Assembly (NCBI RefSeq): GCF_012910805.1 | Contig: NZ_WTVK01000027.1 | Span: 1 to 64,000 of the forward strand | Reading direction: 5' to 3' | DNA: 64,000 nt | Source of the DNA: Aromatoleum evansii | GTDB lineage: Bacteria > Pseudomonadota > Gammaproteobacteria > Burkholderiales > Rhodocyclaceae | Shown here: positions 32,628-57,223 of the stretch, piece after piece | How positions within the stretch are numbered: the stretch's first letter is position 1 | How the letters are laid out: each line of letters opens with the position of its first letter | Made by a program: the position numbers and the translations under genes | Notes under the pieces: model-generated | Database searches by the model: none | What the model was told of the DNA's origin: nothing | Seen by the model: the letters and a program-made list of their open reading frames with translations, nothing else

Positions 32628-32634
32628 GGCGATC

Positions 32635-33801: not shown

Positions 33802-33930
33802 CAAGTGATCATTCAGGCACTCATCGCGAAAGCGTCGATTGAAGCTTTCAATGAAAGCATTCTGCGCGGGCTTGTCCGTCTCGATAAGTTTCAAGACGAC
33901 TGCGTTCTCGATTGACCACTGATCGAGCGA
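33802..33930 (-). pseudogene. IS3-family transposase C-terminal relic
   Basis: On the reverse strand SLDQWSIENAVVLKLIETDK followed by PAQNAFIESFNRRFRDECLN is the C-terminal catalytic part of an IS3-family OrfB (the NAFIESF...FRDECLN motif holds the third acidic residue). Both sides lose the expected sequence, so only about 43 codons survive. Confidence 0.8.
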
Positions 33931-34697: not shown

Positions 34698-35018
34698 ATG
34701 AAGAAGACAACCAAGTTCTCCCCTGAAGTGCGCGAGCGGGCCGCGCGTATGGTGTTCGAGCAGCGCAGCGAGCATGGATCACAGTGGGCGGCGATTGAGT
34801 CGATCGCCGGCAAGATCGGCTGCAGCGCGCAGACGCTGTCGAACTGGGTTCGCCGGTACGAGCGCGACACCGGGCAGCGTGACGGGGTCACCACAGCGGA
34901 GGCGGCTCGCGTTAAGGAGCTCGAGCGCGAGGTGCGCGAGTTGAAGAAAGCCAACGAGATCCTGCGCCTAGCCAGCGCGTATTTCGCGCAGGCGGAGCTC
35001 GACCGCCGCAACAAGTGA
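34698..35018 (+). CDS. IS3-family transposase OrfA
   Basis: The 106-residue protein has the OrfA helix-turn-helix ([37 protein letters not shown]) and a C-terminal leucine-zipper-like helix ([20 protein letters not shown]). It binds the element's ends and regulates transposition. GATGGAGCC lies before the ATG. Its TGA overlaps the ATG of orfB by one base (TGATG); programmed frameshifting normally fuses the two products. Confidence 0.92.
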
Positions 35019-35918
35019 TGAACGGTTTCATCGACACGCACCGCCAGCGCTTCGGGGCGAGCCGATCTGCAGAGTTCTGCAGGTCGCCCCGTCCGCTTAT
35101 CGACGCGCCGTGGCTCGCCGCCGCGATCCGGCCTTGCGCTGTGCGCGGGCTCGTGCGACGAGGTGCTGGCTGGCCACGTCGAGCGGATCTGGCAGGCGAA
35201 TTTGCAGGTGTATGGAGCGCGCAAGGTGTGGCGGCAGTTGCAGCGCGAGGGCATCGAGGTCGCCCGCTGTACGGTCGAGCGGCTGATGCGGACCCAAGGG
35301 CTGCGTGGTGCGATGCGAGGCAAGGCGGTGCGGACTACTCGGCCCGATCCTGCAGCCCCCTGTCCGCTCGATCGCGTCAATCGCCAGTTCGCCGCGCAGC
35401 GCCCGAACCAGCTCTGGGTTTCCGACTTCACGTATGTCTCGACGTGGCAGGGCTTCGTGTACGTGGCCTTCGTCGTCGACGTCTTCGCCCGCTACATCGT
35501 AGGCTGGCGCGTGAGCCGATCCATGCACACCGAGTTCGTCCTCGACGCGTTGGAGCAGGCCCTGTGGGCGCGCCAGCCCGAACGCAACGCCTTGATCCAC
35601 CACAGTGACCGTGGCTCGCAGTACGTGTCGATCCGCTACAGCGAACGACTGGCCGAAGCCGGCATCGAGCCATCGGTCGGCAGCCGCGGCGACAGCTACG
35701 ACAACGCGCTGGCCGAGACCATCAACGGACTGTACAAGGCGGAAGTCATCCACCGGCGAGGCCCCTGGAAGAGCGTTGAAGCGGTCGAGCTGGCCACCCT
35801 CGAATGGGTCTCATGGTTCAATCACCACCGCTTGCTTGAGCCGATCGGGTACATTCCGCCAGCCGAAGCCGAGGCAAACTACTACCGCAGTCGAACTGAG
35901 CAGGCGGTTGCTGCCTGA
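35018..35918 (+). pseudogene. IS3-family transposase OrfB with two frameshifts
   Basis: Starting [13 protein letters not shown], the frame breaks near 35057, resumes in the next frame with EPICRVLQVAPSAYRRAVAR, and breaks again near 35155. From about 35163 the rest is intact: HVERIWQANLQVYGARKVWR, WVSDFTYV (first Asp), HHSDRGSQY (second Asp) and NALAETINGL (Glu). Each break is explained by loss of one base. The catalytic core is therefore intact but probably not expressed with its N-terminal DNA-binding part. Sequencing error in the original assembly is an alternative. Confidence 0.8.
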
Positions 35919-36765: not shown

Positions 36766-37137
36766 ATGAAATCAATCGCGCGCTCGCTTACGGCGATGCA
36801 TTCTGATTCGCCAGAGGTGATTTCCTCGAGATTTATATTTGCATCGGGCCGGGTTGCCGCTGCCCCAAACGACGCGTACCTCGTGGACGACATAGCGATT
36901 CAGGCGCGACAAGCTTTCAGTAATATAACAACAACCCTCGCCGCTGCGGGCGCTCAACTCAGCCATGTGGAAATGGTGACCTTGTATATTAAGGATTTAA
37001 GTGACCTGGGTGCAGTAGATAAAATTTATTGTGAGCAGTTTGGGCGGCACCGGGCAGCACGTTCAACAGTGAAGGTTCCTAATCTGCCGGGTGGGTCTCG
37101 TGTCGAGATTGAAGTTCTCGCACTCTTGCCTTTATGA
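36766..37137 (+). CDS. RidA/YjgF-family protein
   Basis: The 123-residue protein shows the RidA fold pattern: SSRFIFASGRVAAAPND, DIAIQARQAFSNITTTLAAA and NLPGGSRVEIEVLALLPL, with LSHVEMVTLYIKDLSDL between. RidA proteins hydrolyse reactive enamine/imine intermediates; here the catalytic Arg lies in GGSRVEIEV, where the usual reading is LARxxxxVEIE. Base composition is much more AT-rich than the ICE. It stands alone among insertion-sequence relics and has no clear ribosome binding site; the ATG at 36796 is an alternative start. It may be a remnant of a catabolic cluster. Confidence 0.75.
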   Translation: MKSIARSLTAMHSDSPEVISSRFIFASGRVAAAPNDAYLVDDIAIQARQAFSNITTTLAAAGAQLSHVEMVTLYIKDLSDLGAVDKIYCEQFGRHRAARSTVKVPNLPGGSRVEIEVLALLPL

Positions 37138-37489: not shown

Positions 37490-38799
<1,310 letters not shown>

Positions 38800-38803
<4 letters not shown>

Positions 38804-39917
38804 CCTGCGACCTCCTGCACGCCGCGGCCGAGGATGCCGGCCTCGAGCAGGTGCTCGTAGATCGCCAGATCTCGCACCTCCACCGCGAGGGCATCGGGGG
38901 CGCGGCGCAGGGAATGCCCTGGCGTACTCGCTGATGTGGGGCCAGCATGGCGCCGGCGCGCATTGCGCATCGGGGCACCCGCCCCGTGCTGTGGGCACAC
39001 CGACAGCTGCGCTCGCCCGGCGAGCACCGGCTGCTCGGCGACCAGGCGTCCGCGATGACGTATCAACCAGTTGCCGCCGGCGCGCACGATCTCGACGGTC
39101 TGACCGATCAGGGTCTGCGCCCGGTAGGGCTGGCATAGGCGCGGCAGAAGCCCCTGTGACCGGCGAAGGCGGCGAAGGTCGCATTGAGCCGGCGGCGCCG
39201 CTCACCATCGCCGTCGCTCTCGGTGCCGAGCACAACGGTGCGCATACGGTCGTAGAGCAGGCACTCGCAGCGCCCGCCGAAATGGGCGACGGCGTGTTCA
39301 TGCACAGCGAGCAGATCGCCCATGCGTTCGTGCAGGAAGCCCTCGGCATAGGCGCGCCGGCTGTAGCTGAGAGTCATCACGAAGATGTGCACCTTCGTGC
39401 GCTGATCGCCGAACCCGACGGTGATCTGGCCCCAGCCGACCTGCGCTTGTTCGCCGGGGTCGTTTCAAAGCGGCACTGCGTCAACGCGGCGAAGTTGGCC
39501 TGCGCCCGCAGGGGCGCACGGCGAGCTTGACGGTCTCGCAGCTGCCGGCGAAGCCGTGCTGGGCGCGCAACTCCTGGTAAAGGATGCGCGCCGAGTACCG
39601 CACCTGGGGCGCCCGCTCGACGAGCTATGCCCGATACGCATCGAGCACCGTCGCCGCGCTCTTCTCGCGCCGGTACGGAAGCCACGCGTCCTGTCGCAGA
39701 CAGCCCCGCACCGTGTTCCGATCGAGCTCGAACTCGTGGGCGATGGCCGACACGCTCGCCCCCTCCCGTCCGCCGCGCATGGATCGCGTTCCATTATTCG
39801 CGTCCGATCACGTCGCCCTCCGTGCCCGGTTTCAACCCGGACACGGTAACGCCGATGGTCCAGGACCCGCGGGCCCTGGACCGCATCCACACCAGACACC
39901 ACTGCTTCCCTTTCCAT
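38800..39917 (-). pseudogene. istA: IS21-family istA, frameshifted
   Basis: Pieces of the IstA transposase are spread over three reverse frames: VRYSARILYQELRAQHGFAG, AEGFLHERMGDLLAVHEHAV and AHFGGRCECLLYDRMRTVVL from the catalytic core, then PYRAQTLIGQTVEIVRAGGN and VEVRDLAIYEHLLEAGILG at the C-terminus. The stop overlaps the istB start, the usual IS21 layout. The segment TGTCAGCGG (complement of 39983-39991) upstream could be the element's left terminal repeat, but no matching right end is visible. Confidence 0.82.
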
Positions 39918-40647: not shown

Positions 40648-42864
40648 GTGAAGCAACTTCTTAGGCGCCGTAGCCTGACGGGCGCGACTATCGCACTTAC
40701 ACTTTTGAACTCCCTGATCGCGTTCGCCGACGAGCGTGTACAGGGGTATGTCGACTCCGCCAGAATGAGCAGTTTAGATTCTGAGCCTCAAAACTGGGTA
40801 GCGCCGGGTCGAGATCAAAAAGGCACGTATTTCTCCCCGTTGGAGACGATTAACGAGAAGAACGTCAGTCGTCTTGGCCATGCGTGGTCCTACAAACTTG
40901 GTACCTATCGCGGTCAAGAAGCTACGCCCATTGTGATTGATGGCGTGATGTACGCAGCGGGCATTTGGGGGCGTGTTTATGCCCTCGAAGCTGCAACTGG
41001 CAATGAACTATGGACATACGATCCGCAGGTCAATGGTCAAGTTGCAAGGAACACCTGTTGCGACGTCGTAAACCGCGGATTAGTGGTATGGCAGGGGATG
41101 GTGTACGTGGCGTCTACCGACGGTCGGTTGCATGCCCTTGATGCGGCGACGGGGAAGAGGATATGGGTTGTAGACACAATCGAAGATAAGAAGCTGCCGT
41201 ACGCGAGTACCGGGAGTCCTCAAATTGCTAAAGATGTTGTCGTAATTGGCAACGCGGGTGCTGATCTTGGGCAGGGCGGTGTTCGGGGCTACGTTACGGC
41301 CTATGACCTGAAAACTGGCGCCCAGAAGTGGAGGTTCTATACAGTACCCGGTGCCCCTGGTTCCGCTCCGGAGCATCCAGAAATGGAGGTTGCTCAGAAG
41401 ACATGGGATCCCCAACGGGCTGCCTTCGTAAAAGGAGGTGGCACAGTTTGGGACGGCATGGCCTACGATCCAGAACTTAACCTGCTATACGTCGGCACCG
41501 GGAATGGCGCCCCGTACGACCAGCGAAAGCGTAGTCCCGCAGGCGGGGATAATCTCTACCTTTCATCAATACTAGCCATTAATCCAGATACTGGAAGACT
41601 GGTGTGGCACTACCAGACGACTCCAGGAGATATCTGGGACTTTACCGCTGTACAAAAGATGATCCAGGCTGACTTGGTCATCAATGGAAGGCAACGTAAG
41701 GTGCTGATGCAGGCGCCGAAAAACGGCTTCTTCTATGTGCTGGACCGTGCGACCGGCGAATTGCTTTCGGCCAAGAACTATTCCTACGTAAACTGGGCTA
41801 GTCATGTCGACATGAAGACGGGTCGGCCGGCGGTGACCAAACAAGGGGACTACTACACGGGGCCAAAGCTGCTGTATCCGTCATGGTCTGGCGCTCATAG
41901 TTGGCAGCCAATGGCGTTCAATCCAAAGACAAATCTTGTTTATATCCCGGTAATCGACATCCCGAATTTCTGGGTCGACATGCCTAACTCGGGGGGTAAA
42001 CTCAAGTTTGTCAATGGATTCTTCACTACTGCCGGCATTACCCCTGACGGCGCTTTTGACGCGAAAACCCTAAAGCCGCTCTTTGGAACATTGCCAGACT
42101 TGAAGCAAATCAAGGCTCCGCGTCCCGGGGCTCTTGTCCGAGAAGTGCTTCGCGCGTGGGATCCGGTCAAGCAGAAAGTGGTCTGGGAGCAGGAAACTTC
42201 AAATGGATACCGCTCCTACGACGGTGGTGTCCTGACTACCGCGGGCAATCTAGTGTTCCAAGGGCGGGGAGATGGCGACTTCGTTGTGTATGCGGCTGAT
42301 ACGGGGAAACAGCTCAAGCGCATAAACACCGGTAGTACCATCATGGCGGCACCGATGACCTATTCGGTGAACGGAACGCAATATGTCGCGGTTCAGACTG
42401 GCTATGGCGGTACCGCGATCGTTACGCCGATTTCCCCAAAGAGCGCCGCGGCCACCCGCGTCAACGAGAACCGCATCCTCGTATTCAAGCTTGATGGCGA
42501 CGAGGTTCCAAAGCCTCCGCTGCGCAACGATGAGCCCTTTCCGTCGCCCCCGAAGAGCGATGCTACGCCAGAGCAGATTAAATCCGGTGAGATAAAGTTC
42601 AACCAGCATTGCGCCCAGTGTCACGTCTTTTCGCCGAATGTCACTCCGGATTTGCGCCGGATCTCGGAAGGAGTCCATCAGAATTTCAAGGAAATCGTTC
42701 TGCGTGGCCAAAGAGCATTCATGGGAATGGGCAGGTTTGACGACGTGCTTACCGAAAATGACGCAGATGAGATTCATGCCTATCTAATCAGCGAACAGGC
42801 CAATGCATATAACCTTGAACATAAACAGGAGGAAAAGCTGAAACAGCGAGCGTCAAAGCATTAG
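40648..42864 (+). CDS. PQQ-dependent alcohol dehydrogenase with haem c domain
   Basis: The 738-residue periplasmic quinohaemoprotein oxidises a primary alcohol to an aldehyde. A signal peptide (TGATIALTLLNSLIAFA) is followed by the eight-bladed PQQ domain: vicinal disulfide Cys137-Cys138 (RNTCCDVV), propeller tryptophan-docking repeats such as LHALDAATGKRIWV, and the catalytic Asp331 in GDIWDFT. Thr333 sits where lanthanide enzymes have Asp, so calcium dependence is expected. The C-terminal cytochrome c has CAQCH (655-659). The usual calcium-ligand Glu (GAExGVRG) reads GADLGQGGVRG here. Start is GTG with AAGGAG. The substrate is unknown; type II ADH or tetrahydrofurfuryl-alcohol-dehydrogenase-like enzymes are the closest comparison. 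Confidence 0.92.
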   Translation: MKQLLRRRSLTGATIALTLLNSLIAFADERVQGYVDSARMSSLDSEPQNWVAPGRDQKGTYFSPLETINEKNVSRLGHAWSYKLGTYRGQEATPIVIDGVMYAAGIWGRVYALEAATGNELWTYDPQVNGQVARNTCCDVVNRGLVVWQGMVYVASTDGRLHALDAATGKRIWVVDTIEDKKLPYASTGSPQIAKDVVVIGNAGADLGQGGVRGYVTAYDLKTGAQKWRFYTVPGAPGSAPEHPEMEVAQKTWDPQRAAFVKGGGTVWDGMAYDPELNLLYVGTGNGAPYDQRKRSPAGGDNLYLSSILAINPDTGRLVWHYQTTPGDIWDFTAVQKMIQADLVINGRQRKVLMQAPKNGFFYVLDRATGELLSAKNYSYVNWASHVDMKTGRPAVTKQGDYYTGPKLLYPSWSGAHSWQPMAFNPKTNLVYIPVIDIPNFWVDMPNSGGKLKFVNGFFTTAGITPDGAFDAKTLKPLFGTLPDLKQIKAPRPGALVREVLRAWDPVKQKVVWEQETSNGYRSYDGGVLTTAGNLVFQGRGDGDFVVYAADTGKQLKRINTGSTIMAAPMTYSVNGTQYVAVQTGYGGTAIVTPISPKSAAATRVNENRILVFKLDGDEVPKPPLRNDEPFPSPPKSDATPEQIKSGEIKFNQHCAQCHVFSPNVTPDLRRISEGVHQNFKEIVLRGQRAFMGMGRFDDVLTENDADEIHAYLISEQANAYNLEHKQEEKLKQRASKH

Positions 42865-43014
42865 CCATCCTGAGTGCGAGGACGCGACTGCGAGAGGCGT
42901 CAGCAAGAACGCAGACATAAGTTGCCCGCCCACATTCGGCTTATTTCAGTTTATTTAGACCAATTAGATCAAAATTGCCGGACTAGATAACACTTCCACA
43001 CCTTGGAGACAGTA

Positions 43015-44514
43015 ATGAATACGGTTCGTTATCACGAGATCGCGGGTAGCTTGTCGTTTGATACCCAAGCATTTATCGGTGGCAAATTTCTATCGTCCAT
43101 TTCGGAAAAACAGTTTGAAACGTTTAATCCAGCTAACGGCAGGGTCATCACCCGGGTCTCCGAATGCAATAGCGCAGACGTCGATCGAGCAGTAGCCGCA
43201 GCTCGAGCTGCGTTCGAGAGTGGAGTTTGGTCGCGAATGGCGCCTCGCCAACGTAAGAAAGTACTTCTGAGGTTCGCTGACCTTATCGAGAAGAATACTG
43301 AAGAGCTGGCAGTGATGGAGTCGGTGGATTCCGGCAAGACCATCGCCGACGCGGTTGGGTTTGACGTACCTGAAACCGTTGAGACGCTGCGCTGGCACGC
43401 GGAGGCACTGGACAAACTCTATGATCAAGTGGCACCTACGGCCGACAATATTGTTGCGATGGTCGTGCGCGAACCGATTGGTGTCGTGGGCCTGGTGCTT
43501 CCTTGGAACTTCCCCCTGTACGTGACAATGTGGAAGTTGGCCCCCGCGCTCGCCGGCGGCAATTCCGTGATTATCAAACCTTCAGAATTGACGTCGTTGA
43601 CTACGCTTCGCCTCGCTAAGCTCGCGGCAGAAGCCGGTCTACCGGAAGGGGTATTGAGTGTCGTTCCCGGTTTTGGCGAGACGGCCGGTCAGGCGCTTGG
43701 ACGTCACGCCGATGTGGATTGTCTGAGCTTTACGGGATCCGGGGAAGTCGGGCGATATTTTCTTCAATATTCGGCGGAAACCAATCTCAAACGCGTGGTG
43801 CTTGAACTCGGTGGCAAGAGCCCCGCTGTGGTGCTGGATGACGTTCGAGATTTGAAGGCTGTAGCCGAGCAGGTGGCGATCGGATGTCTGTTCCATCAAG
43901 GCCAGAATTGTAGCGCTGGTTCTCGCCTCATCGTACAGCAAGGCGTTAAGAATGCTCTCCTGGACGAACTCGTGTCAGTGTTCAAGTCCTGGACCGTTGG
44001 GGATCCGCTCGATCCGGCCAGTCGCCTTGGGGCGCTGGTCGAAGAAAAGCACATGAATCGAATCCTTTCATATATTGACACCGGCAAGAAGGAAGGCGCT
44101 CGCCTGATTTTGGGAGGTGGCCAAGTCCTCCAGTCGAGCGGTGGCTTCTTCCTGGAGCCCACGATCTTTGACGAAGTCACTAATTCAATGACTATCGCGC
44201 GCGAGGAAATCTTCGGTCCGGTCCTCTCCATAATCGCCTGCACCGATACGCAGGATGCGATTAGAAAGGCCAACGAGACTAATTATGGTCTCGCAGCGTC
44301 GCTTTATACCGACAGTGTCGACAACGCGCATCAAGTTGCCAAGTCTCTTCGCGCGGGACAGGTCTCAGTTAATTGCTTCTCGGAAGGAGATCAGACAGTT
44401 CCGTTCGGTGGATATAAGCAATCGGGCTTCGGGGGGCGCGACAAGGGTCTTCAGGCTCACGAACAGTATCTCGAAACTAAAGCAATTTGGATGCAACTCG
44501 CTCCGCGAGATTGA
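43015..44514 (+). CDS. NAD(P)-dependent aldehyde dehydrogenase
   Basis: This 499-residue cytoplasmic enzyme has all ALDH landmarks: PWNFP (Asn166), the nucleotide-binding FTGSGEVG, general base Glu265 in ELGGKSP, and nucleophile Cys299 in GQNCSAGSR. The C-terminal motif PFGGYKQSGFGG is normal. It would convert the aldehyde made by the upstream dehydrogenase to the acid. GGAG precedes the ATG at 43015; an in-frame start at 43003 is less well placed. A 150-base gap separates it from the first gene. Confidence 0.95.
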   Translation: MNTVRYHEIAGSLSFDTQAFIGGKFLSSISEKQFETFNPANGRVITRVSECNSADVDRAVAAARAAFESGVWSRMAPRQRKKVLLRFADLIEKNTEELAVMESVDSGKTIADAVGFDVPETVETLRWHAEALDKLYDQVAPTADNIVAMVVREPIGVVGLVLPWNFPLYVTMWKLAPALAGGNSVIIKPSELTSLTTLRLAKLAAEAGLPEGVLSVVPGFGETAGQALGRHADVDCLSFTGSGEVGRYFLQYSAETNLKRVVLELGGKSPAVVLDDVRDLKAVAEQVAIGCLFHQGQNCSAGSRLIVQQGVKNALLDELVSVFKSWTVGDPLDPASRLGALVEEKHMNRILSYIDTGKKEGARLILGGGQVLQSSGGFFLEPTIFDEVTNSMTIAREEIFGPVLSIIACTDTQDAIRKANETNYGLAASLYTDSVDNAHQVAKSLRAGQVSVNCFSEGDQTVPFGGYKQSGFGGRDKGLQAHEQYLETKAIWMQLAPRD

Positions 44515-44706
44515 AGAGTGCCCGGGAAGTGGAAGTAGGGTGATCATCGACTGATCGCCACAATTGCGGTCCGCGTCCATGTCCCCTACGGCGCTCCTGA
44601 CGCGAGCAGGGGCGTCGTTCACCACACTGGTAAATCAAATAGCAACAGGTTTGGGTCCGTTGCTGGGGCAGCTCAACCCCAAATTCTGAATTTCTGGAGA
44701 AGTGAA

Positions 44707-46089
44707 ATGAGTTCGCATAAGCTCTCAATGCTGTTGGCTGCTGTGATCGGATGCAGCCAAATAAGCGTGGCAGTCGCGGCGGGCGATGCAGATCGTCTGG
44801 GAAAGGAACTAACCCCTCTTGGTGGAGAAAAGAAGGGGAATGCCGACGGGTCTATCCCGGCTTGGGAGGGACTAGAATCCGCTCCCAACGGATGGGTAGC
44901 CGGGAAATATCGCGGTGATTATGCAAAGACGAAGGACGAGAAGGCGCTCTTTTCGATTGACGCGTCCAACGTCGATAAATATGCCAGCAAGCTCACCCCG
45001 GGCCAAATTGCTCTAATCAAGCAATCGAAGGGGTACCGGATGGATGTGTACCCCACACATCGAAACTGTGGTGTTCCCGCTTGGGTTGAGGAGCGTACGA
45101 AGGAAAACGCCACTGAGGCGAAGATGGCGCCCGACGGATTCAGTCTCGAGCATGCTCGAGCGGGCGGTGTACCATTCCCGATTCCAAAGAGCGGCGTGGA
45201 GGCCATGTGGAACCACAAGTTGCGTTCCACCGGCGTTGGTTTCGACTATAAGCAGGGCGTCGCAGCGCTGAGTCCATCCCGCGGTACCAACGACTTCGTA
45301 TTCTCGACATTCGAGATTACTCAGTACTATCCGCACGGCACAAAGGAAGCTAAGAACGTCGAGGATGCTGGTAAGGTCGAATTTTACACTTATTACAAGT
45401 ACAAGTCGCCGGTATCTCTTGCTGGCCAGGCACTGGTATCGACCAGCTATCTTGACCGTCCAGCTGAGGTGTCCTATTACTTTCCGGGCCAGCGTCGAGT
45501 GCGTCGCCTTCCGACGTACGCATATGATGCTCCACTACTCGGCTTCGAAAATGAATACATGGTCGATATACAGAACATGTTCTGGAGTCAGCTCGACAGG
45601 TTCGATTACAAGCTAGCCGGAAAGAAGGAAATCTACATCGCTCACAACGCGTTCAAGATGTATGACTTCAACGCCAAACTTGAAGACGTGTTTAAGCGCG
45701 ATTTCATCAATCCAGACGTTACAAGATACGAACTGCATCGCGTATGGGTGGTCGAGGCAACCGTGAAGCAAGGTCAGCGGCATACCACACCTAAGCGCAC
45801 CTATTATCTTGATGAAGACAGCTGGAATCTGGTTGCTGCTGAAGACTACGACGCAAACGGGAACATTTGGAACGTGCGCCAGACTTTCCAAATCCCGGTC
45901 TGGGAACTTGGAGGAACATGCACCTATGGTCCGTGGATGCAGTACAGCCTCCAATCAGGGCGCTACGTAGCAGACAACCAGGTGATCGGACAGGGTTCTG
46001 ATGTGAAGTTCCTAACCAGTCCTGACGGTGGGCGCTTCAAGGCGAATTTCTATACTCCCGACACCCTGCGCGCGACGAGCGAACGCTAA
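44707..46089 (+). CDS. DUF1329 exported protein
   Basis: The 460-residue protein has a signal peptide (LSMLLAAVIGCSQISVAVAA) and the DUF1329 hallmark LGKELTPLGGEKKGNADGSI then PAWEG. The remainder (VSYYFPGQRRVRRLPTYAYD, FDYKLAGKKEIYIAHNAFKM, KRTYYLDEDSWNLVAAEDYD) matches the LolA-like body of the family. DUF1329 genes nearly always accompany DUF1302 and RND/MMPL genes. It probably carries or binds a hydrophobic molecule in the periplasm; this is inference. GGAG precedes the ATG. Confidence 0.93.
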   Translation: MSSHKLSMLLAAVIGCSQISVAVAAGDADRLGKELTPLGGEKKGNADGSIPAWEGLESAPNGWVAGKYRGDYAKTKDEKALFSIDASNVDKYASKLTPGQIALIKQSKGYRMDVYPTHRNCGVPAWVEERTKENATEAKMAPDGFSLEHARAGGVPFPIPKSGVEAMWNHKLRSTGVGFDYKQGVAALSPSRGTNDFVFSTFEITQYYPHGTKEAKNVEDAGKVEFYTYYKYKSPVSLAGQALVSTSYLDRPAEVSYYFPGQRRVRRLPTYAYDAPLLGFENEYMVDIQNMFWSQLDRFDYKLAGKKEIYIAHNAFKMYDFNAKLEDVFKRDFINPDVTRYELHRVWVVEATVKQGQRHTTPKRTYYLDEDSWNLVAAEDYDANGNIWNVRQTFQIPVWELGGTCTYGPWMQYSLQSGRYVADNQVIGQGSDVKFLTSPDGGRFKANFYTPDTLRATSER

Positions 46090-46164
46090 TCGGTTTGCTG
46101 GAGCCCAATCGCACGGGTTCCAGCAAAAGATTTCTCCTGATTTGCTTATTACACGGAGTGAAAT

Positions 46165-47907
46165 ATGTTCAGGATCACACGTCTGTCAATGGCTACTGCG
46201 TCGGCGCTTGCTGTGATGACCGGGCCGGCCAGCGCATTTCAGTTTGCGACAGGGTCGATCGAAGGTTCTTTCGACTCGACTTTGACCGCCGGATTTGGGG
46301 TTCGAGCCTCCAAGCAAAGCTGCGCCCTTATCGGTGACGGAAATACATCTTGCGGAGCAAGCGCAAACACCGCCCAGTACTCGAATGGCGACAACGGAAA
46401 TCTAAACTATAAGCGCGGCGATTTTTTTGCGGCCAATATCAAGGGAACCCATGAGCTCTTGCTAAAAATGCCTGACGGCTACAAGTTCATGGCGCGGGGC
46501 ACCTGGCTATATGACGCTGGCGCGCCTGAAACACGTCGTACTGACCTGGATGACGACGCAAAGCGTCAAGTGGCGCGTGACGTACGCTTGCTCGATTTTT
46601 GGGCCAGCAAGGATTTTACTATCGGGGAGCAAAACGCGCGCGTTCGCTTGGGAAATCAAGTGCTCAATTGGGGTGAGAGTTACTACATCTCCGGGGGTAT
46701 CAACGCCACCAACGCTTTGGACCTTCAGAAGCTCGCCGTGCCGGGGACCCAATTGAAGGAGGCGGTAATTCCTGCTCCGATGGTGTCGTTCGCAACCGGC
46801 CTAGGGCATGGGGTTAACCTTGAAACGTACTATCAATTTCGATGGAATCGAAATCGTGTGCCTCCGGTTGGCGCCTACTTTTCGGCCAACGACCTTTACG
46901 ACAAGGGACGACAACCGCTCTTTCTTAACCCCTCCAATTTTAACGTAGGTGGATTTGACCCACGGGGGACTCCTCAAGGGGCCGCTGCTTCATTTGCGTC
47001 ACCGGTGTCCGGAGACGACATTGAGGCCAGGAAGACTGGGCAGTATGGACTTTCGCTGCACTACAAGCCTGAGGGTTCCGATCTCGATCTCGGTTTCTAT
47101 TATCTCAATTACCACGACAAAAGCCCTGTTTTGCAATATAACTCGGCCGGAATCTACAATTGGCGATTTCTTGAGGATCGCGAACTGTATGGCCTGAGCG
47201 CGAATTTCCCGCTTGGGGATTGGGCTATTGGAACTGAGTTGTCATATCGACCACGAGACGCTGTAGCCCTTACCGGCTGCTACAACGCCGGCGGACCGCT
47301 TGATTTCAATACCAACGGCGCAGTCGTCGATACCTGTAGCCAGTGGATAGACAAGGAAAAGTATCAGTTTCATGTGACTGCGCAACTGAGCATCTCTCCG
47401 AGTAACTATCCCGGAGTCCTTAAAGCGCTCGGTGGTGCCACGAATGCGACCTTCACGACCGAGGCGGTTGTTATTCGATATCCGGATCTCAGGAGTCGAT
47501 TCGTGCGGTCTGCTAACGGAGTGCCTGTCCAGCAGGCGCCTGCTGCTGGCTATGCCTTCTGGACTGAGAATTCGCCTAGCCTCGGTACGATCGCCTCGGC
47601 CGGCGGCACTGGTACGTCTTGGGGCTACGTCGCAGACTTCAATGCGGCCTATGACGGGAAAATCATTGATGGTTGGCAGGTTATTCCAGGCGTGACCTAC
47701 TTCCAGGCGGTTCGTGGCGACACCCCGACGCTTACTGCTACCTTCCTTGAGGGCGCTAAGTCTGCCACTTACTATGTACTGTTCAATAAGAATGACGGGA
47801 AATGGAACGCAGGTATCAATTACACGGCGTATTGGGGCGGTAATGCGTTAAGGCAAGCTTACGGCGATCGTGATTTCGTCGGAGGCTTCCTTTCCTACAA
47901 CTTCTAA
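46165..47907 (+). CDS. DUF1302 outer-membrane protein
   Basis: The 580-residue protein has a signal peptide (LSMATASALAVMTGPASA) followed by alternating hydrophobic/aromatic strands and a C-terminal aromatic residue (GGFLSYNF), the pattern of an outer-membrane beta-barrel. RGDFFAANIKGTHELLLKMP, VRLGNQVLNWGESYYISGGI and KPEGSDLDLGFYYLNYHDKS are typical DUF1302 segments. It is likely the entry or exit port for the cluster's substrate. GGAG precedes the ATG at 46165. A hairpin terminator follows. Confidence 0.92.
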   Translation: MFRITRLSMATASALAVMTGPASAFQFATGSIEGSFDSTLTAGFGVRASKQSCALIGDGNTSCGASANTAQYSNGDNGNLNYKRGDFFAANIKGTHELLLKMPDGYKFMARGTWLYDAGAPETRRTDLDDDAKRQVARDVRLLDFWASKDFTIGEQNARVRLGNQVLNWGESYYISGGINATNALDLQKLAVPGTQLKEAVIPAPMVSFATGLGHGVNLETYYQFRWNRNRVPPVGAYFSANDLYDKGRQPLFLNPSNFNVGGFDPRGTPQGAAASFASPVSGDDIEARKTGQYGLSLHYKPEGSDLDLGFYYLNYHDKSPVLQYNSAGIYNWRFLEDRELYGLSANFPLGDWAIGTELSYRPRDAVALTGCYNAGGPLDFNTNGAVVDTCSQWIDKEKYQFHVTAQLSISPSNYPGVLKALGGATNATFTTEAVVIRYPDLRSRFVRSANGVPVQQAPAAGYAFWTENSPSLGTIASAGGTGTSWGYVADFNAAYDGKIIDGWQVIPGVTYFQAVRGDTPTLTATFLEGAKSATYYVLFNKNDGKWNAGINYTAYWGGNALRQAYGDRDFVGGFLSYNF

Positions 47908-47918
47908 TCGCGTGTTTG

Positions 47919-47964
47919 CCAGCCGCAATTGATCAACTCGACTGCGGCTGGATCTTGTTCTCTC
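47919..47964 (+). terminator. Hairpin terminator after the DUF1302 gene
   Basis: CCAGCCGCA (47919-47927) pairs with TGCGGCTGG (47943-47951) around a 15-nt loop, followed by the pyrimidine-rich ATCTTGTTCTCTC. The T content is modest, so it may be partial and let the downstream transporter genes be expressed at a lower level. Confidence 0.5.
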
Positions 47965-48063
47965 CATTTCGCCGGGTCCGTTTCCCAACGGTCAAAGCCG
48001 AGACTTTGGACTAGGTCAGGACTGTGAATTGGATGTATACATCGATCTGTAGTGACGGCTGCC

Positions 48064-50457
48064 ATGATAAATATTCTCAAAGTCAACGACGTTGACAAAT
48101 TGCTGACTCGGATGCTAGCCGGGCTGGAAAATTTTTGCTTTAGGTTCCGGACTCCATTCCTGCTGTGGCTAGCCATATTTACTGCAGGGATGGGGTATTT
48201 CGCTCTGCAGTTGCGAATGGAAGCTGGTTTTGAAAAGCAACTTCCAATTGGTCACGAGTACGTCAAGACATTCAATGAGTATCGCGGCGACCTTCTGGGC
48301 GCAAACCGGCTGAACATAGTAGTTAAGGCGCGCAATGAGTCAATCTGGACACAAGCTAGCCTGACTCGCCTTTACGAAGTCACCCAAGCTGTAATCTACC
48401 TCCCCAGCGTTGACCGGCTAGGCGTCCAGTCGTTATGGACTCCTAATAGTCTCGTCAACGAAATTACAGAGGAGGGCTTTCGGGCGGATCCTATTATTCC
48501 CGGAACTGTAACGCCAGACAGCCTGACCGCCGAAAAAATCGCCGAAATCCAGCGTTCAACGAGCCTTGGTGGATTTGTCGGAACTCTTGTATCGAGGGAC
48601 CAGACTAGTGCGATGATCGTCGCAGAGTTGGGCGAGGTCGATAAGGATGGTAATAAAATCGATTACGTCGAGTACAACAAGAGTCTAAATGAGTTAAGGA
48701 AGCGCTTCGAAGACGAGAACTACGAGATACAAATAATCGGGTTTGCAAAACAAATCGGTGACATTGCGGACGGAGCTTCGTCAGTTCTTGAGTTCTGCGG
48801 TGCCGCGCTTGTTCTTACGGCAATGGCGGTCTACTGGTACTGCCGTTCTATTCGCTTTACGCTACTACCGATCATTTGCTCTTTCACCTCGCTGGTGTGG
48901 CAATTTGGCGCGTTGCGCCTTCTAGGATTTGGTCTGGATCCGCTCGGAGTACTCGTGCCGTTTCTGGTTTTCGCTATTGGCGTTTCCCACGGCGTTCAAC
49001 AGATTAACTTCATTGTTCATGAACTGGCGCATGGCAAGTCAGCCGAAGACGCTGCGCGCACCAGTTTTCGCGGTTTGCTGATTCCCGGTGTTTTGGCCCT
49101 CGTTACGGCCTTCGTGTCGTTCGTAACGTTAGTCATCATTCCGATCCCGATGGTCAGGGAACTGGCGATTACGGCATCGTTGGGCGTGTTCTTCAAGATT
49201 ACTACCAACTTGGCGATGCTGCCGATTGCAGCGTCCTACTTCACGTTAGACCGTAAATACGCCGAAGAGGCGATGGACCGTCGAGAGAGCCGTGCACGTT
49301 GGCTCCGGCCACTTGCGCGAGTGGCTGAACCCGGGCGGGCATTGGTGGTCATTGGCATCGCGGCGTGCGTCTTTGGTGCCGCTGTCTGGCAAAGCAGAGA
49401 TCGAGTTATCGGTACGTTGCAGCCAGGTGCCCCGGAATTACGGCAAGAGGCGCGATTTAATCGGGACGCAGTGGCTATCGCGCAAAACTACGACACGGGA
49501 TTGGACTGGCTGACGGTGGTTTTCGAAGCGAGTCCGGAATCCTGCAACAACGTGGCAATTGGGGATTTTCAAGATAAGTTTGTTTGGGATATGCAGAACA
49601 CGCCTGGAGTACTGTCAGTGGCGTCTTACGCCGGGCAACTGCGTACATACAACGAGGGTTACAACGAAGGGCATCCAAAAATGGCGGTCGTTCCGTTGGA
49701 CGAGGCTAATTATGCCTCACTGAGTACAGAAATTGGTCGGATGCGCGGGTACATGCGTAAAGATTGCAGCATGACCGCAGTCCATCTCTTCCTCTCAGAC
49801 CATAAAGCGACGACTATTGGCGGAGTAATAGATAAGGTAAAGACTTTCCGCAACGATCATCAGCTTGAAGGCGTGACTATTCGGCTTGCAGCAGGCAATT
49901 CGGGTGTTCTTGCCGCGGTGAATGACGAAGTGGAACATGCTGAGACCCCGATGATGGTTTATGTGTTTGCTACTATCATTGCCCTAGTCGCCCTTGTCTA
50001 TCGCGACTTCCGAGCGGTTGTCGCGTGCTGCTTGCCACTGTTGATCGGGACGTTCATCGGTTACTGGTTTATGAAGGAACTGCAAATTGGTCTAACCGTC
50101 GCGACGCTCCCCGTAATGGTTCTGGCGGTGGGTATCGGTGTGGACTACGCGTTTTACATCTACAATCGCCTTCAACTGCACTTGGCGAACGGCCTGAACA
50201 TTGTCAGGGCGCTTGAGCATTCGATCCTGGAGGTAGGAACGGCGACGATCTTCACTGCTATTACGCTTGCAGTGGGGGTGGCAACATGGGCGTTTTCAGA
50301 GCTTAAGTTTCAAGCTGACATGGGGATGCTTTTGGCGTTCATGTTTATTGTGAACATGATTATGGCCATGACCGTGCTTCCGGCGTGCGCTGTGTGGCTC
50401 GAAAAGATCTTCCCGAGACGTTCGCCAGTTAGGGCGCCAGGGATTTTGGCGCATTGA
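48064..50457 (+). CDS. RND superfamily MMPL-type transporter
   Basis: The 797-residue inner-membrane protein has the duplicated RND layout: one helix, a periplasmic domain, then five helices, twice. Characteristic stretches are LDPLGVLVPFLVFAIGVSHG with the conserved GVSHGVQ, PIPMVRELAITASLGVFFKI, and in the second half TVATLPVMVLAVGIGVDYAF. The family exports or moves lipids and other hydrophobic molecules with proton motive force. I chose the ATG at 48064; a GTG at 48052 is in frame. Neither has a good ribosome binding site. It is translated with the beta-propeller gene just downstream. Confidence 0.92.
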   Translation: MINILKVNDVDKLLTRMLAGLENFCFRFRTPFLLWLAIFTAGMGYFALQLRMEAGFEKQLPIGHEYVKTFNEYRGDLLGANRLNIVVKARNESIWTQASLTRLYEVTQAVIYLPSVDRLGVQSLWTPNSLVNEITEEGFRADPIIPGTVTPDSLTAEKIAEIQRSTSLGGFVGTLVSRDQTSAMIVAELGEVDKDGNKIDYVEYNKSLNELRKRFEDENYEIQIIGFAKQIGDIADGASSVLEFCGAALVLTAMAVYWYCRSIRFTLLPIICSFTSLVWQFGALRLLGFGLDPLGVLVPFLVFAIGVSHGVQQINFIVHELAHGKSAEDAARTSFRGLLIPGVLALVTAFVSFVTLVIIPIPMVRELAITASLGVFFKITTNLAMLPIAASYFTLDRKYAEEAMDRRESRARWLRPLARVAEPGRALVVIGIAACVFGAAVWQSRDRVIGTLQPGAPELRQEARFNRDAVAIAQNYDTGLDWLTVVFEASPESCNNVAIGDFQDKFVWDMQNTPGVLSVASYAGQLRTYNEGYNEGHPKMAVVPLDEANYASLSTEIGRMRGYMRKDCSMTAVHLFLSDHKATTIGGVIDKVKTFRNDHQLEGVTIRLAAGNSGVLAAVNDEVEHAETPMMVYVFATIIALVALVYRDFRAVVACCLPLLIGTFIGYWFMKELQIGLTVATLPVMVLAVGIGVDYAFYIYNRLQLHLANGLNIVRALEHSILEVGTATIFTAITLAVGVATWAFSELKFQADMGMLLAFMFIVNMIMAMTVLPACAVWLEKIFPRRSPVRAPGILAH

Positions 50458-50468
50458 GGAGAATGATC

Positions 50469-51491
50469 ATGAAATATTTTGCTGCTATGAGCGTAAAGCG
50501 CCTTGGTGCAACAATCTGCCTTGCCACGGGAATATGTGCACTTTATGCGGTGCAAGCCAGCGCTGCGGTGGAGCAAAGTGAAGTACGAATTTCACCGGCC
50601 GTGATATCTCAGTTTGCTACTAGGGCGGCGATTTTGGGGGCTGCAACTGCTGGTCAGCGCGTTGTCGCTGTCGGATCGTACGGAACAGTGTTGTTGTCTG
50701 ATGACGGGGGACAATCGTTTCGTCAGGCGAGGTCGGTACCAGTCTCGTCGACTTTGACTTCTGTATCCTTTGTCGACGAAAAGCATGGATGGGCGGTTGG
50801 TCATTGGGGGATGATCCTCGCTACTGAGGACGGGGGGGACACGTGGGCAGTGCAGCGAACTGACCTGAAGGAGGACCGTCCCCTTTTTTCGGTACACTTC
50901 TTCGATCAGAACGAGGGTGTTGCCGTGGGATTGTGGTCGCTGATACTACGGACCGGTGACGGCGGAAAGACGTGGGATCGTATTTCGGTTCAGGATCCCG
51001 ATACCGGTGGGGAAAGCGATAGGAACTTGTTCAAGTTGTTTGCAGCTCCTAGTGGGACTCTATTTGTATCTGCGGAGCGGGGTTCGGTTCTGCGTAGCGA
51101 CGATCGGGGACGAACGTGGAGTCGCCTTGATACCCCGTACAAGGGGTCACTATGGTCGGGGCTCGTTATGAAGGATGGTACTTTGCTGGTCGGTGGTCTG
51201 CGCGGTAGCCTTTATCGTAGCCGCAACGGCGGCAGTAGTTGGGATCAGGTGAGAAACGACGCGCATAACTCGATCACAGATATGGTTGAAACTTCGGATC
51301 GGGTCGTCGCGGTCGGACTGAACGGGGTACGCCTCGAAAGTCGCGACGGGGGAATGACGTTTGTTGCCTCGCAAAGAGATGATCGTTTGTCGTTGACTGC
51401 TGCGGTCATCGCACCTAGCGGTGACGTCGTTACATTTTCCAAGACGGGGATTGTGGGGACAGGAACAAGTTCTGCAGTGTCAAGCAAGTAG
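50469..51491 (+). CDS. YCF48-like exported beta-propeller
   Basis: The 340-residue protein has a signal peptide (RLGATICLATGICALYAVQA) and repeated Asp-box/YCF48 units: VLLSDDGGQSFRQA, MILATEDGGDTWAVQR, LILRTGDGGKTWDRIS, VLRSDDRGRTWSRLD and LYRSRNGGSSWDQV. Such propellers accompany RND/DUF1302/DUF1329 sets and probably act as periplasmic adaptors. GAGGAG overlaps the upstream stop and lies eight bases before the ATG at 50469, so the transporter and this protein are coupled. Confidence 0.9.
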   Translation: MKYFAAMSVKRLGATICLATGICALYAVQASAAVEQSEVRISPAVISQFATRAAILGAATAGQRVVAVGSYGTVLLSDDGGQSFRQARSVPVSSTLTSVSFVDEKHGWAVGHWGMILATEDGGDTWAVQRTDLKEDRPLFSVHFFDQNEGVAVGLWSLILRTGDGGKTWDRISVQDPDTGGESDRNLFKLFAAPSGTLFVSAERGSVLRSDDRGRTWSRLDTPYKGSLWSGLVMKDGTLLVGGLRGSLYRSRNGGSSWDQVRNDAHNSITDMVETSDRVVAVGLNGVRLESRDGGMTFVASQRDDRLSLTAAVIAPSGDVVTFSKTGIVGTGTSSAVSSK

Positions 51492-51693: not shown

Positions 51694-52719
51694 TTAGCTG
51701 TGCTGATGCGCGCATTCTTCCTCACGCACCTGACTGGGCTTCTTCCCAAAGGTCTGCTTGAAAGATCGAGAAAAGTGGGAATTACTCAGAAAGCCGCATT
51801 CGAGGGCGATGTCAAGGATTGGTGCCTGCGTTGTGACTAGAAGATTGTAGGCAGTTGCCATTCTCAGTTTGACTGCAAATGCCACGGGAGTCATGCCTAC
51901 TTCTGCCAAGAATAGACGCTCCAGGTGACGGACGCTAATGTTCACATGCTGTGCGATGAATTCCGCTGAGACCGGGGTGCTAATGTGGCGCTCGATGAGC
52001 AGAATCGCCTTGCGTACGCGAGTGTCAGACGTCTGCTGCATCAGGGGGGGCAGTGGTTGCGGTGTCTGCGCCGGAAGCTGAGTATGCTCGATCATGATGC
52101 GCAATGCTTTTGCGGCTCGTGCCTTGTCGCAGTGACGTTCTATAAGGTGCGCTGCCAGATGGACGACGCTGGTCCCTCCAGCACAACTTAGACGGTCTCC
52201 TTCGTCAATAAAGAGCTCCTCGGAGCTGAAAGGAAGCCCGGGAAATTCTTCCGCAAAATCCGAGGCAACATACCAGCTCACGCAACTGCGGCGGTTTTCC
52301 ATCAAGCCTAGTCTGGCGAGGATGAACGGAGCTGTGCAGATCCCTATCAGTGGGACGCGTCGCGCGGCTGCGTGTTGGATAAAGTTAGAAAGCTCGGGGT
52401 CGAGCTTGAGGTGCGGCAGCAGGCCCCCGACAACTACGATGTAGTCGAACTGGGTGGGATCAACGAGCGGGCTGGTAGGGCTAACCTTTAGGCCACAGCT
52501 CGCCGTAATCGGTTGCATATCCTGACTGAGCACCTGCCAGTCACAGTCTATCGGCCGACTCGAGTCGCCTTCGTCAGCCGCCAGTCTGAGGGCATCGACG
52601 AAGGCCGAAAAGGCCACCAGCGTAAAGCGCGGCGCAAGCAAAAATGCAACGGACAGGCGCCTCGTTCTTGGGGGGGCAGATACGTTGCTGCCTCGCGGGG
52701 CGGCTTTTGGATACATCAT
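51694..52719 (-). CDS. GATase1/AraC-type transcriptional regulator (GbdR-like)
   Basis: The 341-residue protein joins an N-terminal DJ-1/PfpI-like sensor (FDYIVVVGGLLPHLKLDPE, PLIGICTAPFILARLGL, SCVSWYVASDF) to a C-terminal AraC DNA-binding domain (SAEFIAQHVNISVRHLERLF, DIALECGFLSNSHFSRSFKQ). This is the architecture of GbdR, CdhR and SouR, which control glycine betaine, carnitine and sarcosine catabolism in Pseudomonas. It is convergent with the transporter cluster and divergent from the Dgc operon, so it most likely controls the latter. The base composition is intermediate. Two adjacent ATGs (52719, 52716) are possible. Confidence 0.88.
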   Translation of the reverse strand: MMYPKAAPRGSNVSAPPRTRRLSVAFLLAPRFTLVAFSAFVDALRLAADEGDSSRPIDCDWQVLSQDMQPITASCGLKVSPTSPLVDPTQFDYIVVVGGLLPHLKLDPELSNFIQHAAARRVPLIGICTAPFILARLGLMENRRSCVSWYVASDFAEEFPGLPFSSEELFIDEGDRLSCAGGTSVVHLAAHLIERHCDKARAAKALRIMIEHTQLPAQTPQPLPPLMQQTSDTRVRKAILLIERHISTPVSAEFIAQHVNISVRHLERLFLAEVGMTPVAFAVKLRMATAYNLLVTTQAPILDIALECGFLSNSHFSRSFKQTFGKKPSQVREEECAHQHS

Positions 52720-53513: not shown

Positions 53514-54491
53514 ATGAATTTTAAACAGGTCCACGACGATTCCATCATCATAGATGGACTGATCATTGCGAAATGGAGCCGCGCGCTCTTTGAAGACATG
53601 CGCCGAGGCGGCCTGACGGCGGCGAACTGCACCGTTTCGGTGTGGGAAGGATTCCAGGCGACGATCGACAATATCGTGATGGTCAATCGCCTGATGGCGG
53701 AAAGCACGGACCTCGTGCTGCCGGTGCGCACCACGGCTGACATCGCTGCGGCCAAGGAAGCGAACAAGACCGGCATCATCCTCGGCTTCCAGAACGCGCA
53801 TGCGTTCGAGGACAAGCTGGGCTACGTCGAGATCTTCAAGAAGCTCGGCGTGGGCATCGTGCAGATGTGCTACAACACGCAGAACCTCGTCGGCACCGGC
53901 TGCTACGAGCGTGACGGCGGACTGTCGGGCTTCGGCCGCGAGGTCGTCGCCGAAATGAACCGCGTCGGCATCATGTGCGATCTCTCGCACGTCGGCGCGA
54001 AGACCTCCGAGGAAGTCATCCTCGAATCGAAGAAGCCGGTCTGCTATTCGCACTGCCTGCCGTCCGGCCTCAAGGAACATCCGCGCAACAAGTCTGACGC
54101 CGAGCTGAAGTTCATCGCCGATCACGGCGGTTTCGTCGGCGTGACCATGTTCGCCCCCTTCCTCAAGAAGGGCATCGACTCGACGATCGACGACTACGCC
54201 GAAGCGATCGAATACGTCATGAACCTCGTCGGCGAGGATGCGATCGGCATCGGCACCGATTTCACGCAGGGCCACGACAAGGACTTCTTCGAGTGGCTCA
54301 CGCACGACAAGGGCTACGCCCGCCGCCTCACCAACTTCGGAAAGATCGTCAATCCCCTTGGCATCCGCACCGTTGGTGAGTTCCCCAACCTGACCGAAAC
54401 GCTGCTCAAGCGCGGCATGCCCGAGCGTGTCGTGCGCAAGGTGATGGGCGAGAACTGGGTGCGCGTGCTGCGCGACGTCTGGGGCGAGTGA
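53514..54491 (+). CDS. Membrane-dipeptidase-family protein of the Dgc operon
   Basis: The 325-residue protein has the renal-dipeptidase fold and matches the PA5396-type protein that opens the dimethylglycine operon of Pseudomonas. His159 (DLSHVG), His180 (CYSHCLPSGL) and Asp249 (GTDF) are present. The first metal site is changed: the usual DGHND is DGLII (residues 14-18) and the bridging Glu is Gln93 (GFQNAH). It may be a mononuclear or altered hydrolase. No signal peptide is visible. GGAGGAGACAG precedes the ATG at 53514; the open frame extends upstream without a plausible start. Confidence 0.88.
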   Translation: MNFKQVHDDSIIIDGLIIAKWSRALFEDMRRGGLTAANCTVSVWEGFQATIDNIVMVNRLMAESTDLVLPVRTTADIAAAKEANKTGIILGFQNAHAFEDKLGYVEIFKKLGVGIVQMCYNTQNLVGTGCYERDGGLSGFGREVVAEMNRVGIMCDLSHVGAKTSEEVILESKKPVCYSHCLPSGLKEHPRNKSDAELKFIADHGGFVGVTMFAPFLKKGIDSTIDDYAEAIEYVMNLVGEDAIGIGTDFTQGHDKDFFEWLTHDKGYARRLTNFGKIVNPLGIRTVGEFPNLTETLLKRGMPERVVRKVMGENWVRVLRDVWGE

Positions 54492-54543
54492 GCCCGACGC
54501 GATCCCCCTGCTGCCCCGACAACATACCGGAGACAAACCGAAC

Positions 54544-55071
54544 ATGAAGACCGCCCCGCAACTGCCGATCGAAGTCGATTCCGAAACCGGCGTCTGGACC
54601 ACCGATGCGCTGCCGATGCTGTATGTGCCGCGCCACTTCTTCATCAACAACCACAAGGGCATCGAGGAAGAGATCGGCGCCGAGCGCTACGCCCAGATCC
54701 TCTACAAGGCGGGCTACAAGTCGGCGTGGCACTGGTGCGAGAAGGAAGCTGCGCGGCACAAGCTTTCCGGCGTCGCGGTGTTCGAGCACTACATGAAGCG
54801 CCTGTCGCAGCGCGGCTGGGGCCTCTTCTCGATCGAGGCGATCGATCTCGACGCGGGTACCTGCCGCGTGCGTCTGGACCATTCGGCCTTCGTCTATGAG
54901 TACGGCAAGGTCGGCCGCAAGATCGAATACATGTTCACCGGCTGGTTCGCTGGCGCGATGGACCAGATCCTCGCCGCCGCCGGCAGCCCGCTGCGCACCC
55001 TTGCCGAGCAGACCCAGAGCGGCGCCGAGGAAGGCTGCGACTACGGCGTGTTCGTCACCCGCCCGCGCTGA
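54544..55071 (+). CDS. DUF5943-like protein of the Dgc operon (PA5397 type)
   Basis: The 175-residue cytoplasmic protein (ALPMLYVPRHFFINNHKGIE, YKSAWHWCEKEAARHKLSGV, QRGWGLFSIEAIDLDAGTCR, YMFTGWFAGAMDQILAAAG) resembles the V4R/DUF5943 proteins that sit between dipeptidase and dgcA in Pseudomonas. The fold is likely a small-molecule-binding alpha/beta domain. The function is not known; co-occurrence points to the demethylation pathway. It is separated from both neighbours by short gaps (52 and 15 bases). Confidence 0.85.
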   Translation: MKTAPQLPIEVDSETGVWTTDALPMLYVPRHFFINNHKGIEEEIGAERYAQILYKAGYKSAWHWCEKEAARHKLSGVAVFEHYMKRLSQRGWGLFSIEAIDLDAGTCRVRLDHSAFVYEYGKVGRKIEYMFTGWFAGAMDQILAAAGSPLRTLAEQTQSGAEEGCDYGVFVTRPR

Positions 55072-55086
55072 AAGGAGTAAAAGGCA

Positions 55087-57150: not shown

Positions 57151-57223
57151 TGCACCGCCCGGCGGGATGAAGGCGCGGCCCCGCGCTGCGCTCCCGCCGG
57201 ACTGCAGAAGCAAGGAGAGTTGA

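Follow-up and report, generated by a model that had tools for sequence, protein, structure and literature searches.

A quinoprotein alcohol dehydrogenase operon with an AmeABCD-type envelope cassette in Aromatoleum evansii, and the association of related cassettes with aldehyde-forming enzymes

The operon and its gene products

Between positions 40648 and 51491 of the window, that is, the whole stretch of 64,000 nt from Aromatoleum evansii that was analysed (contig NZ_WTVK01000027.1 of assembly GCF_012910805.1), six collinear open reading frames (ORFs) on the forward strand encode a pyrroloquinoline quinone (PQQ) and haem c alcohol dehydrogenase (ADH), an aldehyde dehydrogenase (ALDH), a DUF1329 protein, a DUF1302 barrel, a resistance-nodulation-division (RND) pump of the MMPL type, and a YCF48 propeller (Table 1). 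ORF calls and profile matches agree in this with the preliminary description of the stretch, which had named the same six genes and families. The genes are separated by 138, 192, 75, and 144 bases, and the start of the propeller gene overlaps the stop of the pump gene by 4 bases. No terminator-like site was found on the plus strand within these gaps, by a scan that performed no better than on shuffled sequences, and the same was true of the promoter scan.

The ADH matches TIGR03075 with 577.6 bits (cut-off 480) and carries a C-terminal cytochrome c domain (PF13442, 29.1 bits, cut-off 27). With a PQQ propeller above the curated cut-off and a haem c at the C-terminus, it qualifies as a quinohaemoprotein alcohol dehydrogenase. 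Its best solved structures are 1yiq (633 bits) and 1kv9 (631 bits), type II enzymes that it resembles in a near full-length match including the PQQ and haem c domains. An N-terminal signal-like stretch was recognized by eye, a pair of adjacent cysteines is located at position 137, and a CAQCH motif at position 655. PqqE, the one pqq gene that was searched for, is present in the genome (525.6 bits, cut-off 381). For the ALDH, the best NCBIfam model was PuuC, with a score of 545 bits that is below the cut-off of 850, and the two top solved structures were 7uyy (567 bits) and KauB, 6b4r (566 bits).

The DUF1329 protein has the LolA fold of the DUF1329/LolA superfamily and is likely to be a periplasmic shuttle, and the predicted model of the DUF1302 protein appears to have an OprD/Occ-type porin fold; both comparisons were made within a list of fold families, and for both proteins families outside that list could match as well. 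The top NCBIfam model of the pump was TIGR00921 (HAE3), with 153 bits and thus below the cut-off of 352. The genome, 5.94 Mb in 330 contigs, has seven matches each to DUF1329 and DUF1302 and nine pump matches, six of which score at least 230 bits, the window's own among them. Elsewhere in it, DUF1329-DUF1302 pairs without a pump hit are found at two loci (L021 and L023, on contigs C281 and C243), and two near-identical, distant sets of YCF48, RND, DUF1302, and DUF1329 genes at two others (L022 and L024, on C243 and C177; pump branches of about 0.03).

Table 1. Features of the operon and its surroundings (window coordinates)
Feature	Position	Strand	Basis
Integrase-core (rve) ORFs	34119-34682 and 35163-35915		Upstream of operon
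Broken IstB (IS21-type) relic	38325..39349	-	PF01695, two overlapping ORFs in two frames, 75.8 and 47.3 bits
Quinohaemoprotein (PQQ and haem c) alcohol dehydrogenase	40648..42864	+	TIGR03075, PF13442, nearest structures
Aldehyde dehydrogenase	43003..44514	+	PF00171, 566 bits; no signal peptide seen by eye
DUF1329 LolA-fold protein, AmeB-like	44707..46089	+	PF07044, 403 bits
DUF1302 outer-membrane barrel, AmeA-like	46165..47907	+	PF06980, 451 bits
HAE3-like RND/MMPL inner-membrane pump, AmeD-like	48052..50457	+	MMPL PF03176, 90 bits
YCF48-type beta-propeller, AmeC-like	50454..51491	+	PSII_BNR/YCF48 PF14870, 86 bits
GbdR-like AraC regulator	51694..52719	-	GbdR model, 182.6 bits, under cut-off 480; convergent with operon

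A cassette clade and its partner enzymes

The last four genes form a cassette of a kind that has been described before. AmeABCD of Castellaniella defragrans consists of a DUF1302 protein (AmeA), a DUF1329/LolA protein (AmeB), a COG4447 protein that is photosystem II assembly factor-like (AmeC), and an HAE3 RND pump (AmeD) (PMC6394551). The window cassette resembles AmeABCD in all four families, in their adjacency, and in its location in a catabolic island. Because they are of the same kind, the four envelope genes already have a described role, and the earlier statement that they lack a settled function was too strong. The two cassettes differ in gene order, which is DUF1302-DUF1329-YCF48-RND in AmeABCD and DUF1329-DUF1302-RND-YCF48 in the window, and in their partners, which are monoterpene genes in the former and a quinoprotein dehydrogenase in the latter. 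The same families are also present in Pseudomonas putida, where, judging by the locus numbers, they are split over two places, PP_0765/0766 and PP_2018/2019, with PP_2018 presumably being the YCF48-type protein. No dehydrogenase partner is named in the passage on these four genes, which are described as DUF1302, DUF1329, a periplasmic protein, and an efflux transporter, are linked also by co-folding, and have been proposed to make up two complexes (PMC10866462). Known before are the families and one cassette. The clade, its link to amine and alcohol oxidation, and the split ancestry of its halves were not found in print by full-text searches of a limited literature set.

Relatives of the pump were sampled with cut-offs from 1e-150 to 1e-220, in overlapping draws, from 274 genomes of the class (33 with E up to 1e-150), 36 genomes of one order (3), 398 of the phylum (6), 399 of the bacterium's own order (13), 293 of another order (1), and 297 of its own family (61). 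Thirty-nine plasmid records had a pump match, and 13 of the best 15 were fetched (H4 and H7, with the same scores as H3 and H8, were omitted). Sixty of 66 additional places in the family were fetched (all but G1444 C1 517016, G1516, G1488, G1391, G1403 C94, and G1366); these 60 loci were assigned by E-value and gene order, and 20 of them were also included in later trees. Within the 297 family genomes sampled, no pump other than the window's own exceeds 81% identity to it.

In a tree of 66 pumps (one control, L141, was omitted owing to an ORF length limit), the window pump and 30 others form one clade with a support of 100, and the order DUF1329-DUF1302-RND-YCF48 is found at 30 of these 31 loci. 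Altogether, 85 of the 91 loci of the window's kind (the first 31 and the 60 added from the family) have all four genes in this order. The control loci were 33 other HAE3 cassettes, 25 of which have all four genes in the ameABCD order. Thus, the four envelope genes recur together, as had been proposed, and the window cassette is part of a distinct clade that has a gene order of its own. To judge from gene order alone, AmeABCD is probably in another clade. The pairs DUF1329-DUF1302 and RND-YCF48 are intact in both common orders, and also at L219, where a PQQ ADH gene is followed by RND-YCF48 and then by DUF1329-DUF1302, so that the halves are reversed; L134 and L167 read otherwise.

Enzyme genes within 10 kb of the pump were searched for by BLAST, with queries taken mostly from the clade's own loci. 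In the first sampling, a partner enzyme was found in 15 of 31 clade rows and in 0 of 32 rows of other HAE3 pumps (Fisher 2.5e-6; the rows being related and not independent, this and the following Fisher value are guides). The partners were nine tryptophan tryptophylquinone (TTQ) amine dehydrogenases (MauB/D/A), two quinohaemoprotein amine dehydrogenases (QhpA/QhpD), two PQQ ADHs (in the window and at L158), a copper amine oxidase (L168), and EutBC (L167). Among the 60 added loci, 24 have a TTQ enzyme, 14 a cysteine tryptophylquinone (CTQ) enzyme, one a PQQ enzyme (L219), and 21 none of these. Altogether, a quinone-cofactor dehydrogenase or oxidase is located within 10 kb at 53 of the 91 loci and at 0 of the 33 controls, or at 49 of 77 versus 0 of 22 loci with at least 5 kb on both sides (Fisher 2.4e-8). 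These 53 enzymes comprise 33 TTQ amine dehydrogenases, 16 quinohaemoprotein amine dehydrogenases, three PQQ ADHs, and one copper amine oxidase, and the genes of 39 of them lie on the strand of the pump and within 2 kb of the cassette. A lack of co-occurrence with dehydrogenases elsewhere had been named as what would speak against the proposed system; the opposite was found.

An ALDH gene is present within 10 kb at 49 of the 91 loci, and a EutR-like AraC gene near 55, each versus 0 of 33 controls, which have none of the partner enzymes searched for. Because of these empty control loci, the enzyme link appears to be specific to one clade. The AraC-type gene at the end of the window operon was considered as the clade's usual regulator, for which there was no support, as it is GbdR-like and has no BLAST hit to the EutR-like genes of the clade; it is at most a putative regulator of the operon.

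Seven further loci of the 91 have another firm amine-to-aldehyde enzyme, namely EutB in one and flavin amine oxidoreductase relatives (75-100% identity) in six, L198, L200, L201, L204, L205, and L207, where the gene is near DUF1329 and a EutR-like AraC gene is present. The L201 protein, the one on which Pfam was run, matches PF01593 with 194 bits, and neither it nor that of L204 matched an NCBIfam model at E 1e-20. Originally, 18 loci had been grouped as other amine-to-aldehyde loci, a class that was abandoned because on inspection it consisted of the seven firm cases and 11 with weak or ambiguous hits only, which are five class III transaminases (that of L217 being of the 4-aminobutyrate type) and six matches to flavin adenine dinucleotide proteins (25-28%) on plasmids.

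Among solved structures, the TTQ chains of L163 are nearest to aromatic amine dehydrogenase (light chain 203 bits, heavy chain 312 bits, versus 156 and 148 bits for methylamine dehydrogenase); L020, a second clade locus in the window's own genome, has QhpA (728 bits) and QhpD (743 bits), L168 a primary-amine oxidase (1429 bits, cut-off 1278), and L167 EutB (724 bits, cut-off 554). L163 resembles an aromatic amine (aralkylamine) dehydrogenase operon of the mau/aau type, with the cassette between the TTQ genes and the ALDH gene, all on one strand; the window instead has a PQQ ADH and an unlike ALDH. The partner enzymes differ in fold and cofactor, and what unites them is the formation of an aldehyde, mostly out of amines (TTQ, CTQ, TPQ, and flavin enzymes) and at times out of alcohols (PQQ). 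Amine oxidation is the usual partner and the alcohol form of the window is rare: a PQQ ADH is present at 3 of the 91 loci, versus amine dehydrogenases or copper amine oxidase at 50, which does not support the earlier idea of the alcohol as the moved compound. Seven cassettes of the clade lie on large plasmids of Pseudomonas aeruginosa and Burkholderiaceae (L147, L149, L150, and L153-L156); these have a gene for a PhyH-type dioxygenase upstream and lack a quinoprotein gene.

Ancestry of the cassette halves and genomic setting

In the pump tree, the type of partner changes at least six times. For example, L020, with its CTQ enzyme (contig C274), is the sister of L169, with a TTQ enzyme, and the two pumps are 93% identical. 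The window pump is placed among those of L195, L194, L163, and L164 (support 99) and groups with amine dehydrogenase operons of its bacterial family; it is 81% identical to the pumps of L163, L164, and L194, all of which are beside TTQ amine dehydrogenase genes. The other genes of the cassette were compared by topology tests, in which the groups were picked after the trees had been seen, so that the p values are guides. The pump rejects a grouping with L166 (p 3.4e-5 with 22 rows, 9.6e-52 with 36 rows), whereas the DUF1329 protein joins L166 (66% identity, support 99.9-100) and rejects the L163/L164 grouping (p 1.9e-27, or 0.0012 with L194 added). The DUF1302 protein, closest to that of L217 (56% identity), also rejects L163/L164 (p 1.4e-4) and is compatible with L166 (p 0.2). 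The YCF48 protein leans to L163/L164 (89) without rejecting L166 (p 0.16). The ALDH shares 36% of its residues with the L163 enzyme and 46% with the L217 enzyme. L166 itself, in a genome of 1.5 Mb (G954), adjoins sensory genes (PAS-GGDEF-EAL and histidine kinase); the search for partner enzymes gave no hit in the 20 kb of this locus, a region with several unannotated ORFs.

Since both DUF1302 and DUF1329 reject the relatives of the pump, a boundary lies between the DUF1302 and pump genes. The window cassette is a mosaic, in which shuttle and barrel differ in ancestry from the pump, and by sequence comparison the enzymes and this outer half appear to be of other origins than the pump. We infer that the cassette consists of two exchangeable halves, barrel plus shuttle and pump plus propeller. 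The swapped order of the pairs at L219 counts in favour of this reading, as do the two pairs of P. putida, with their two suggested complexes (PMC10866462).

The composition of the operon differs from both flanks, as previously stated. The fraction of G and C at third codon positions (GC3) is uniform over the six genes (0.54-0.60), and the AraC-type gene (0.62) is part of the same low-GC3 stretch, compared with 0.87-0.91 for three genes at 53562-57150 on the right and 0.66-0.85 for the gene calls at 28732-35915 on the left, which come from a rough gene caller. The insertion sequence (IS) relics reported upstream were also recovered, as IstB fragments and two rve ORFs. The low GC3 and these relics on the left make the assignment to an island sound; of the proposed recent transfer, the composition is consistent with transfer as such. 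To the left of the IS21 relic, at 36766-37137, is a RidA-like (L-PSP) gene with a GC3 of 0.49, which may be an older part of the island. At the plasmid loci L149, L150, and L153-L156, RidA genes directly precede DUF1329, and the window's RidA-like gene had no BLAST hit to them. The genes after the island, at 53562-60417, encode an M19 dipeptidase, a DUF5943 protein, an oxidoreductase of the old yellow enzyme (OYE) type, a DUF3483 Fe-S protein, and the alpha subunit of electron transfer flavoprotein (ETF), an arrangement that we take to resemble a dimethylglycine (dgc) catabolism locus; by GC3, these genes are native.

Outward transport and alternative explanations

We interpret the operon as a dehydrogenase and an ALDH combined with an AmeABCD-type hydrophobe cassette. 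This cassette would act as a relief valve through which the aldehyde, alone or along with the substrate, is released, a reading to which we give about even odds. The exported dehydrogenase would oxidize the alcohol outside the inner membrane and pass the electrons to haem c, and the aldehyde would enter the cell, where the ALDH, apparently cytoplasmic, would consume what enters. The proton-driven pump, assisted by the propeller, would take the hydrophobic compound outward at the inner membrane. From there the compound would be ferried over the periplasm by the LolA-like DUF1329 protein and leave through the DUF1302 barrel in the outer membrane, so that the cassette would relieve the cell alongside the ALDH. 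The cargo is most likely a hydrophobic aldehyde or its precursor, moved outward; we infer this direction and compound, as well as the assembly of the proteins, and the outer half may set the cargo. Of the preliminary description, the trans-envelope set and the two-step oxidation, which proceeds via an aldehyde, are supported.

Several observations weigh against this interpretation. A common aldehyde product does not fix the cargo, which could also be the amine, the alcohol, or the acid. The assumption of efflux is taken over from AmeABCD, probably of another clade by its gene order, where the Nile Red effect is reported as slight and wild type and mutant hardly differed in real-time efflux, though a transposon insertion in ameB did lower growth on perillic acid (PMC6394551). 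None of the enzymes searched for is present at 20 of the 91 loci, 12 of which have at least 5 kb on both sides, and the 11 loci with weak or ambiguous hits come on top of these; with mostly clade-derived queries, moreover, the controls were tested for these enzyme families only, and 11 of the 33 have less than 5 kb on one side. EutBC is normally cytoplasmic, so that not every partner forms its aldehyde in the periplasm. Identity between the window ADH and those at L158 and L219 is 38%, and a EutR-like AraC gene is missing from the window. Seen from the enzyme side, 15 out of 290 genomes in the order contain MauA, at 22 places in total, of which three adjoin a cassette and 19 lack one in the fetched DNA. 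Likewise, 0 of 80 loci of window-ADH relatives hold a cassette in the DNA fetched, with no DUF1329, DUF1302, RND, or YCF48 match to the window's proteins above 80 bits; 12 of the first 17 of these loci listed have at least 5 kb downstream, and at the two nearest relatives, L030 and L031, the sequence ends less than 1 kb past the ADH gene and is uninformative. The link is therefore one-sided: the cassette is often accompanied by a dehydrogenase, and the dehydrogenases can do without the cassette.

In line with the uptake proposed in the preliminary description, the cassette could instead import the hydrophobic substrate, alcohol or amine, from outside into the periplasm, with the barrel as entry pore and the shuttle or the pump feeding the dehydrogenase. 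The apparent porin fold of the DUF1302 model fits this proposal, OprD/Occ being a family of uptake channels. It would also agree with the requirement for the four P. putida genes during growth on Tween 20 (PMC10866462) and with the impaired growth on phenanthrene of a Delftia DUF1329 deletion mutant, as told in PMC13101534. However, a periplasmic dehydrogenase needs no inner-membrane pump as a feeder, HAE3 pumps are described as delivering their substrates to the periplasm, and the deletion of ame affected growth on non-functionalised monoterpenes but not on perillyl alcohol, aldehyde, or acid, the mutant equalling the wild type on the alcohol and the aldehyde (PMC6394551). Uptake of the alcohol was therefore not kept as the first choice, and we regard it as rather unlikely. 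A general tolerance pump for hydrophobes or solvents, residing in catabolic islands that handle toxic hydrophobic compounds and having no specific relation to aldehydes or amines, would be in line with the support of monoterpene hydrocarbon tolerance by AmeABCD (PMC6394551), the high expression of a DUF1329-YCF48-MMPL cluster in a benzene degrader (PMC13101534), and the seven plasmid loci with a dioxygenase and no quinoprotein. As such a pump would not account for the contrast with the control cassettes in partner enzymes and EutR-like genes, we find this explanation unlikely, too.

In this particular operon, the genes for alcohol oxidation could have come to lie next to the cassette solely by recombination within the island, without the two working together. 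Close relatives of the window ADH were not seen beside a cassette at any other locus, the ALDH differs strongly from that of L163, and IS relics are nearby. Against this stand the short gaps and the overlap on one strand, the absence of terminator-like sites from the gaps as far as the scan can tell, the uniform GC3, and the PQQ ADH genes of L158 and L219, on the same strand and within 2 kb of the cassette; a chance neighbourhood is thus improbable.

Beyond the relief valve for the single operon, we tentatively suggest, as a possibility we would not yet favour, that the clade is a distinct trans-envelope class for aldehyde-forming amine and alcohol oxidation, with a conserved inner half that serves at least four quinone cofactors and an exchanged outer half that carries the substrate preference. 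The window would then be a natural re-fit from amine to alcohol.

Proteins of the DUF1329 and DUF1302 families occur widely, as do their RND partners, and their functions are poorly assigned. Through the link of one clade to enzymes that form aldehydes, a concrete class of cargo can be proposed for them, together with operons in which to test it, and the outer half is suggested to determine the substrate. This would bear on how bacteria survive aldehydes that are made outside the cytoplasm, and on the engineering of whole-cell amine and alcohol oxidation.

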